Shown in pieces: positions 21,118-21,565 of a stretch of DNA of 38,274 nt. The notes under the pieces are model-generated. The model saw only the letters and a program-made list of their open reading frames with translations, did no database searches and had not been told where the DNA came from. The first letter of the stretch is position 1. Each line of letters begins with the position of its first letter. The position numbers and the translations under genes were made by a program. This stretch comes from an uncultured bacterium. Lineage in GTDB: Bacteria; Patescibacteriota; Minisyncoccia; Phycocordibacterales; PALSA-1337. Location: NCBI GenBank assembly GCA_903842025.1, contig CAIMKX010000047.1:1-38274 (forward strand), given 5' to 3'.

Positions 21118-21152
21118 AATAATCCAACCTATGTCCACAATTTTTCAAATAA

Positions 21153-21251
21153 TTTTATCGTTTCTTGAACAAGATTTTATCAATCCTTGAAACAGATTTT
21201 ATCTGGATTTTAACAAAATTTTATCAGGATTTTATCTCACCTGAGTATAAT
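21153..21251 (+). repeat. Phased tandem repeat: TTTTATC at 21153, 21175, 21197, 21219 (22-bp steps) and 21230 (11 bp), ending at a TATAAT
   Basis: Direct reading; adjacent 22-mers also share cttgaacaaga/cttgaaacaga. Confidence 0.85.
21246..21251 (+). promoter_or_regulatory. -10 box TATAAT for the tRNA-like transcript
   Basis: Perfect TATAAT at the end of the phased array; -35 weak or absent. Confidence 0.5.
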
Positions 21252-21279
21252 GGCATTCAGAACGATTAAATTCGTTCGT

Positions 21280-21349
21280 GGGCCCGTGGAGCGGTTTCCT
21301 GTTCCCTTTATCAAATGGAACTTAGCGGGTTCGACTCCCGTCGGGTCCA
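21280..21349 (+). ncRNA. tRNA-like RNA: canonical acceptor and T-arm, atypical D-arm and anticodon arm
   Basis: gggcccg/cgggtcc acceptor (7 bp, one G.U); gcggg TTCGACT cccgt T-arm; gttcc(11 nt)ggaac in place of the anticodon arm; short gga-gcggtt-tcc D-arm; no encoded CCA. Confidence 0.5.
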
Positions 21350-21357
21350 CAAATTGC

Positions 21358-21385
21358 TTGACAATAGACTATTTAGGAGTAAAAT
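21358..21385 (+). promoter_or_regulatory. Consensus-like promoter TTGACA-16-TAAAAT between the two RNA segments
   Basis: ttgaca atagactatttaggag taaaat. Confidence 0.7.
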
Positions 21386-21391
21386 TTCGGT

Positions 21392-21565
21392 ATTGATAAA
21401 GGGAACTGGAGAATCATAGAACCTGCAAGGTTCTAGCTAAACAACCACTGGATATATATCTGGTGGTTGTTTATTTTCATAAGTGGTAAAATATTCCGGT
21501 CGAATTACTCGACTGGTGGACATCACGGAGTCGCTGAAACATAACAATCCCTTCGGGGATTTTTA
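21392..21565 (+). ncRNA. Candidate structured small RNA(s); may end at the hairpin at 21439-21477 or at the terminator near 21564
   Basis: Promoter at the right distance; hairpins agaacc-tgcaa-ggttct, aaacaaccac...gtggttgttt and ccggtcga-attac-tcgactgg; no coding potential seen. Confidence 0.5.
21546..21564 (+). terminator. Rho-independent terminator
   Basis: aatccc ttcg gggatt ttt. Confidence 0.75.

Follow-up and report, generated by a model that had tools for sequence, protein, structure and literature searches.

What is encoded at positions 21280–21565 of the 38,274-nucleotide (nt) stretch of Patescibacteria DNA analyzed here (the window), where a transfer RNA (tRNA)-like sequence is followed by a promoter and a segment complementary to it? 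The earlier note, made from the letters alone, offered three explanations: a split RNA pair, a decoy tRNA with its antidote RNA, or one long RNA with two alternative folds. Our analysis showed that the locus belongs to a real, recurrent module of two, sometimes three, RNAs with strong covariation. It favors the decoy and antidote over the other two, given the separate promoters, the one-to-one covarying complementarity, and the antisense directed to one of two sites, the anticodon arm or the CCA end. We refer to the tRNA-like RNA as RNA1, to the RNA complementary to its anticodon arm as RNA2, and to a third predicted RNA (about 21499–21565), which lies inside the noted interval and was absent from the note, as RNA3. 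On balance, we consider it probable that RNA1 is a CCA-tailed, alanine-type tRNA mimic and RNA2 its dedicated antisense inhibitor, forming an RNA–RNA toxin–antitoxin or dose-control pair. Positions are window coordinates; the window genome is G000, and codes beginning with G, C, and L denote genomes, contigs, and loci of the survey. Named relatives in a gyrA-based search placed this genome near Candidatus Taylorbacteria (Patescibacteria).

In the window, TTGATAAAGGGAAC (21393–21406) is a perfect 14-nt reverse complement of GTTCCCTTTATCAA (21301–21314), and TTTCC/GGAGA brings five further pairs, exactly as the earlier note had described; the TTGACA-16-TAAAAT promoter was likewise found in place. 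Covariance models were built from RNA1 alone, with no RNA2 information (R1, then R2 with 33 members). A second RNA1 copy is present in the same genome (G000:C1:29125–29201), and further copies occur in relatives. The loops of the first eight loci read differed, and seven of the eight had a promoter downstream and, after it, the reverse complement of their own loop. Among 33 members, the cloverleaf covaried strongly (197 cells with both-sided pair changes vs 54 in shuffled data; score 0.698 vs 0.207). A search of 384 genomes of the class with R2 yielded new members, and 19 of the 19 examined had a cognate promoter-driven RNA2. The RNA1-only models gave 94 candidate loci, 68 in the class and 26 elsewhere in the phylum; the pairing test outside the class left out L269 and L275, two of the 28 matches there, which are ordinary tRNAs. 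At 76 of the 94 loci, adjacent DNA complements the anticodon arm of its own RNA1 above the 99th percentile of swapped controls.

Own-locus complementarity in the 68 class members had a median score of 38 vs 21 for swapped partners, and 52 members lay above the maximum of 408 swapped comparisons, which puts the match seen in the window beyond chance. When the RNA1s and RNA2s of seven early members were crossed in a 7 × 7 table, the cognate duplex had the greatest stability in every row. Window RNA1 with the RNA2 of the second copy gave −24.7 kcal/mol vs −33.6 kcal/mol with its own partner; therefore, the two pairs of this genome appear to be largely separate. The intermolecular helix was compared over sixteen positions in 51 loop-anchored members, and ten positions were paired in 50 or 51 of them. 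At seven of the ten, between two and six standard pair types occur, and shuffled partners reached at most 29 to 44 pairs; at most of these variable positions all 51 members are paired. The remaining three, the loop U, C, and A, are invariant or nearly so and thus uninformative on pairing. The earlier note had asked whether the complementarity is lost in relatives and whether it covaries: it is kept while the sequence changes, and the helix covaries.

Is RNA1 itself an ordinary tRNA? The full acceptor stem (GGGCCCG/CGGGTCC) and canonical T-arm (CGGG-TTCGACT-CCCG) lie where they had been placed before. Comparison with relatives revises the supposed 3-base-pair (bp) D-arm to a 4-bp stem with the loop CGGT/TGGT. 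The gttcc/ggaac arm is present, but its 11-nt loop resolves in the alignment into part of a 7-bp anticodon stem with a 9-nt loop (consensus YYUNRNCAR), the window stem having one C·U mismatch. A tRNA has a 5-bp anticodon stem and a 7-nt loop. The Rfam tRNA model (RF00005) scored 24.9 bits against RNA1, below its threshold of 29, and ARAGORN returned only a dubious tRNA-Asp, anticodon ATC, at 21280–21350; a confident standard tRNA model, which the earlier note had set against its own reading, is thus not found over the region. An Rfam scan of the window detected no family at gathering score, T-box included. RNA1s may stand in public Patescibacteria annotations as spurious tRNAs (here tRNA-Asp, anticodon AUC). 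The loop consensus contains U-N-R, a U-turn motif of a type familiar in antisense systems. Compared with shuffled sequence, both RNAs are predicted to fold far more stably (z −3.47 for RNA1 and −5.55 for RNA2). Among order-level RNA1s, the loop of the 5' hairpin often complements the anticodon-arm loop (own vs swapped p 0.001), and this hairpin is possibly a built-in guard.

The RNA2 promoter scores 9–12 of 12 in 57 loci, whereas shuffled sequence mostly scores 7–8, and the −10 box ends 5–7 nt ahead of the complementary segment in 43 of the 57; therefore, the seed is predicted to be the very 5' end of RNA2. Complementarity runs on into the D-arm to a greater extent than with swapped partners (p 1e-6), and a separate, later segment pairs better with the anticodon 3' strand of its own RNA1 than with that of swapped ones (p 2e-4, 57 loci). 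The shortest RNA2s comprise little beyond the antisense stretch and a terminator.

The position of RNA2 relative to RNA1 varies. Best-match placement over the 94 candidates gave 61 RNA2s downstream on the same strand, 21 upstream on the same strand, 9 convergent, and 3 divergent, with one clear divergent case. The distance from the RNA1 end to the seed is about 30–80 nt in the downstream form; in the upstream form, the seed lies about 90–150 nt before RNA1, which then often has its own terminator. Therefore, a single RNA with alternative folds is excluded for the family, and the variation argues for action in trans. RNA1 had also been considered an orphan in other classes, an idea rejected when RNA2s were located on the opposite strand; a search of one genome for a trans-encoded RNA2 gave nothing convincing. 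Separately, six loci with RNA2 upstream (L203, L212, L214, L233, L247, and L241) have an RNA1 leader with GTGGAG(CC/TT) or similar, which could displace the acceptor 5' strand from GGCTCCAC.

Anticodon-arm antisense is missing at ten loci. The motif TGGTGGA occurs in the flanks of eight of these, compared with 15 of the 84 other loci (Fisher p 1.4e-4), and in seven of the eight it directly follows a hairpin of at least 4 bp. The bases after TGGTGGA complement the acceptor 3' strand of the same locus, with 12-nt matches in L280 and L065. Across all members there was no general excess of CCA-end antisense (3 of 94 above the 99th percentile), the signal residing mainly in the loci without anticodon-arm antisense. 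At loci with CCA-end antisense, the RNA1 gene mostly has no encoded CCA; the antisense thus matches a tail largely missing from the gene, which suggests that RNA1 is CCA-tailed after transcription. The window, where the mature 3' CCA is not encoded, holds both kinds of antisense, RNA2 against the anticodon arm and RNA3 against the CCA end. TGGTGGAC in RNA3 complements the RNA1 3' end GUCCA plus CCA, and the UGG complementary to CCA is present in such class-C antisense RNAs. The RNA3 promoter (TAAAAT, 21487–21492) is weak, and RNA3 is the least certain part of the window locus. The effect common to both antisense types would be to take RNA1 out of action.

What RNA1 may carry is indicated by its acceptor end. 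The bacterial alanine identity set is reported to consist of A73, G2-C71, G3·U70, G4-C69, and G20 (PMC9976931). RNA1 has G3:U70, A73, and G2-C71: in class members, G3:U70 occurs in 60 of 62, G2-C71 in 61 of 62, and A73 in 62 of 62, with G1-C72 likewise kept (60 to 62 of 62). Acceptor pairs 4–7 vary with compensation while these alanine-type pairs hold. In other classes of the phylum, G3:U70 was found in 28/28 and an encoded CCA in 21/28, counts that include the ordinary tRNAs L269 and L275.

The promoter of RNA1 points to a possible occasion for its expression. The ATTTTATCNNNNCTTGAA pattern has 30 sites in about eleven clusters in the window genome vs 1 site for the reversed control, and two of the clusters are those of both RNA1 loci. 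Downstream of other clusters lie genes encoding a T2SSE/PilB-type ATPase, a ChlI/ComM-type protein, a ComEC protein, and a type IV pilin (identified by Pfam T2SSE, Mg_chelatase/ChlI, Competence, and N_methyl). In genome G001, a related motif precedes RNA1 and, as judged by eye, genes for a ComEC-like protein and a metallo-beta-lactamase-like protein and an rpsF-like gene. The box array looks like the mark of a regulon for competence and type IV pili in the window genome, to which, on this shared motif, RNA1 probably belongs in the window's genus. Unlike the box-bearing RNA1 promoter, the RNA2 promoter is ordinary. Two further box clusters, L297 (G000:C6:14500–15900) and L298 (G000:C9:1–900), have no evident nearby gene; after the boxes of L297 come about 180 nt with a terminator at their end, and the two clusters possibly precede further non-coding RNAs.

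Strong RNA1 matches occurred in 25 of 333 genomes sampled across the phylum (E <= 3e-11; a few are ordinary tRNAs), no genome having more than five, and 38 non-Patescibacteria genomes gave three weak matches of tRNA length. No recurrent neighboring protein family was found; the only common site is adjacent to gyrA (four loci within the family), and named relatives whose gyrA is as much as 82 percent identical have no cassette there. No match was found among phage or plasmid records. Eight pattern matches on viral contigs were dismissed as chance because the T-arm is absent, and a second pattern gave none. Coordinates are collected in the table.

Table. Features predicted at the window locus and ATTTTATCNNNNCTTGAA box clusters of the window genome (G000)
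Feature	Position	Strand	Basis or details
Five ATTTTATC boxes upstream of the RNA1 −10	21152, 21174, 21196, 21218 (22-nt spacing), 21229; span 21152–21236	+	Sequence
RNA1 −10 element TATAAT	21246–21251	+	Sequence; predicted start ~21258–21259
RNA1, tRNA-like, ~91 nt	21259–21349	+	Sequence, predicted gene
RNA1 5' hairpin GAACGA-TTAAAT-TCGTTC	21260–21277	+	Predicted fold; counterparts in order-level relatives
RNA1 tRNA-like domain	21280–21349	+	Covariance model score 70.4 bits; A73; CCA not encoded
RNA1 segment complementary to RNA2 (3' D-strand, anticodon 5' strand and loop)	21297–21314	+	18-position match, one mismatch; score 37 vs swapped 99th percentile 31.0
RNA2 promoter, TTGACA (21358–21363), 16 nt, TAAAAT (21380–21385)	21358–21385	+	11/12 matches
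RNA2, antisense RNA	21393–21476	+	5' complementary segment 21393–21412, hairpin, terminator 21438–21473; fold z-score −5.55
Second RNA2 segment	21421–21435	+	Pairs with RNA1 anticodon 3' strand (21316–21330) or folds as own hairpin
RNA3, class-C antisense	21499–21565	+	Hairpin 21499–21513, TGGTGGAC 21514–21521, terminator 21546–21561
ATTTTATCNNNNCTTGAA box clusters, 22-nt period (1)	Window 21152–21236; C1:7155–7216, C6:15399–15460, C9:223–262, C31:7005–7066		
ATTTTATCNNNNCTTGAA box clusters, 22-nt period (2)	C38:19415–19454, C38:22086–22125, C44:19477–19538, C48:3465–3559, C52:8891–8952		

How might the module work? From two candidate RNA genes, their one-to-one covariation, the siting of the promoters, the elements of alanine identity, and the common promoter boxes, all read from the DNA, we infer that RNA1 would be transcribed, CCA-tailed, alanylated, toxic when free, and inactivated by pairing. 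With its 7-bp anticodon stem and 9-nt U-turn loop, RNA1 would have alanine identity but would not decode normally. The first nucleotides of RNA2 would seed on the RNA1 loop and invade the anticodon 5' strand, often also the D-arm, so that strand invasion would dismantle the tRNA-like fold; at a minority of loci, the antisense would instead cover the acceptor 3' strand and CCA end. Free RNA1 would disturb translation or alanine charging and, short of a shift in the balance, would be silenced by RNA2. Induction of RNA1 in the window's genus would probably coincide with that of the competence and type IV pilus genes.

An alanine identity kept in nearly all members, and promoter boxes common to RNA1 and competence genes in two genomes, would also suit a specialized alanine carrier, for instance a non-ribosomal donor of alanine or a competence-related translation factor, its dose tuned by RNA2 and no toxin involved. 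We regard this as unlikely, since the cassette is patchily distributed, can have several copies in one genome, and is cleanly absent from the orthologous site in named relatives, all of which suits an accessory module better than a housekeeping carrier, and no recurrent neighbor able to use Ala-RNA1 was found. RNA1 might alternatively be a sponge that titrates RNA2, the latter being a small RNA regulating messenger RNAs (mRNAs), with a strong sigma-70-type promoter and a free 5' seed; the probable induction of RNA1 with other genes in the window's genus would agree. However, the seed changes freely with RNA1 between loci, even at the same gyrA-adjacent site, which is unexpected if mRNA targets held it, and a sponge would need neither alanine identity elements nor a CCA end. 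A sponge is, in our view, quite unlikely.

Could RNA1 and RNA2 instead form one active two-piece RNA, for example for ribosome rescue in the manner of transfer-messenger RNA (tmRNA)? RNA1 is similar to the tRNA-like part of tmRNA (RF00023 score, 29.9 bits) and has G3:U70, and RNA2 pairs at the place of tmRNA helix 2. A split tmRNA, considered for G3:U70 and the rnr neighborhood, was set aside because the window genome already has a full tmRNA (C42:51195–51557) with smpB beside it. RNA2 has no consistent tag frame (by eye), and the shortest RNA2s barely exceed the antisense stretch and terminator. Moreover, the two antisense types hit opposite RNA1 ends and largely replace each other, a substitution that one active complex would not be expected to tolerate. 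An active composite is therefore very unlikely, and the earlier note's split pair, working only as a complex, is less likely than the decoy and antidote. A single long transcript that alternates between mutually exclusive folds is extremely improbable and already largely refuted for the family: the downstream arrangement without room for an RNA1 terminator would allow such a cis switch, but it is impossible where RNA2, having a promoter and a terminator to itself, lies upstream, or where it is convergent on the other strand.

Several observations weigh against the toxin–antitoxin or dose-control pair that we favor. In the downstream arrangement, the space between RNA1 and the RNA2 promoter (21350–21358 in the window) is too short for an RNA1 terminator, and a read-through transcript holding both RNAs is likely. 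The acceptor stem at class level is lengthened by covarying pairs, −2:74 in 28 of 29 and −3:75 in 26 of 29 (3 of 22 and 7 of 22, respectively, in ordinary tRNAs of the same loci), and a stem of this length might impede processing by RNase P or the addition of CCA. Matches of the CCA-end antisense are short, the association had already been noticed when the Fisher test was run, and two loci (L236 and L245) show neither kind of antisense. Finally, the competence link was seen in the window's genus only; class-level genomes gave no sign of it, and the one class-level promoter motif tried was present only at RNA1 loci.

How does this pair compare with known systems? Type VIII toxin–antitoxin systems consist of two adjacent small RNAs, on the same or opposite strands, one harmful and the other neutralizing (TADB 3.0, PMC10767807). 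The predicted genes of RNA1 and RNA2 have this arrangement, and like SdsR/RyeA and CreTA they are two neighboring small RNAs of which one is putatively harmful and the other would neutralize it. Unlike in those systems, the putative toxin is tRNA-like with alanine identity, the antitoxin is antisense to an anticodon arm or CCA end, and there is no CRISPR effector. RNA1 shares with tRNA-Ala and other tRNAs (RF00005) the cloverleaf, T-arm, A73, G3:U70, and an encoded or putative CCA; it differs in its score below the Rfam threshold, long anticodon stem and large loop, 4–5-nt D-loop, and cognate antisense RNA, and in one clade in its extended acceptor stem. With tmRNA, including two-piece forms, the pair shares an alanine-type acceptor end with G3:U70, a T-arm, and two base-pairing pieces, but RNA1 has only about 91 nt, its score falls short of the RF00023 threshold of 47, and neither tag frame nor pseudoknots were seen by eye. 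As a side observation, four nearly complete genomes (G012, G025, G067, and G075) had no tmRNA match of the usual full-length score; an SmpB match was absent in G012, G025, and G075 and present in G067. The likeness to T-boxes is formal: CCA-end antisense pairs as UGGU...:ACCA and a T-box as UGGN:NCCA, and other antisense RNAs of the module read the anticodon loop. Unlike T-boxes, RNA2 and RNA3 are short predicted RNAs with a terminator rather than mRNA leaders with specifier loop and antiterminator, and they would rely on long perfect complementarity rather than codon–anticodon reading. As in antisense RNAs of the CopA/CopT and Hok/Sok kind, the 5' end of RNA2 would seed on a U-turn loop with strand invasion to follow; here, however, the target is neither an mRNA nor a replication primer but a tRNA-like RNA, and the gene of the antisense lies next to that of its target, not on the strand opposite it. 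In Rfam and the searchable papers, no system was found in which a tRNA-like RNA with amino acid identity is countered by its own antisense, and the literature on tRNA-like/antisense pairs in bacteria of the candidate phyla radiation yielded nothing relevant.

These results add two interacting RNA families with a patchy distribution in several Patescibacteria classes, members of a large bacterial branch that is poorly represented in culture. Since the cassette is small (about 200–350 bp) and movable, charging, toxicity, and neutralization are open to direct test. A wider meaning, which we put forward tentatively and hold to be possible rather than probable, is that of a module without proteins, present across the phylum: an alanyl-tRNA mimic induced with competence would arrest or reprogram translation, antisense RNAs against its anticodon arm or its CCA end would neutralize it, and DNA uptake would so be coupled to growth control in Patescibacteria.
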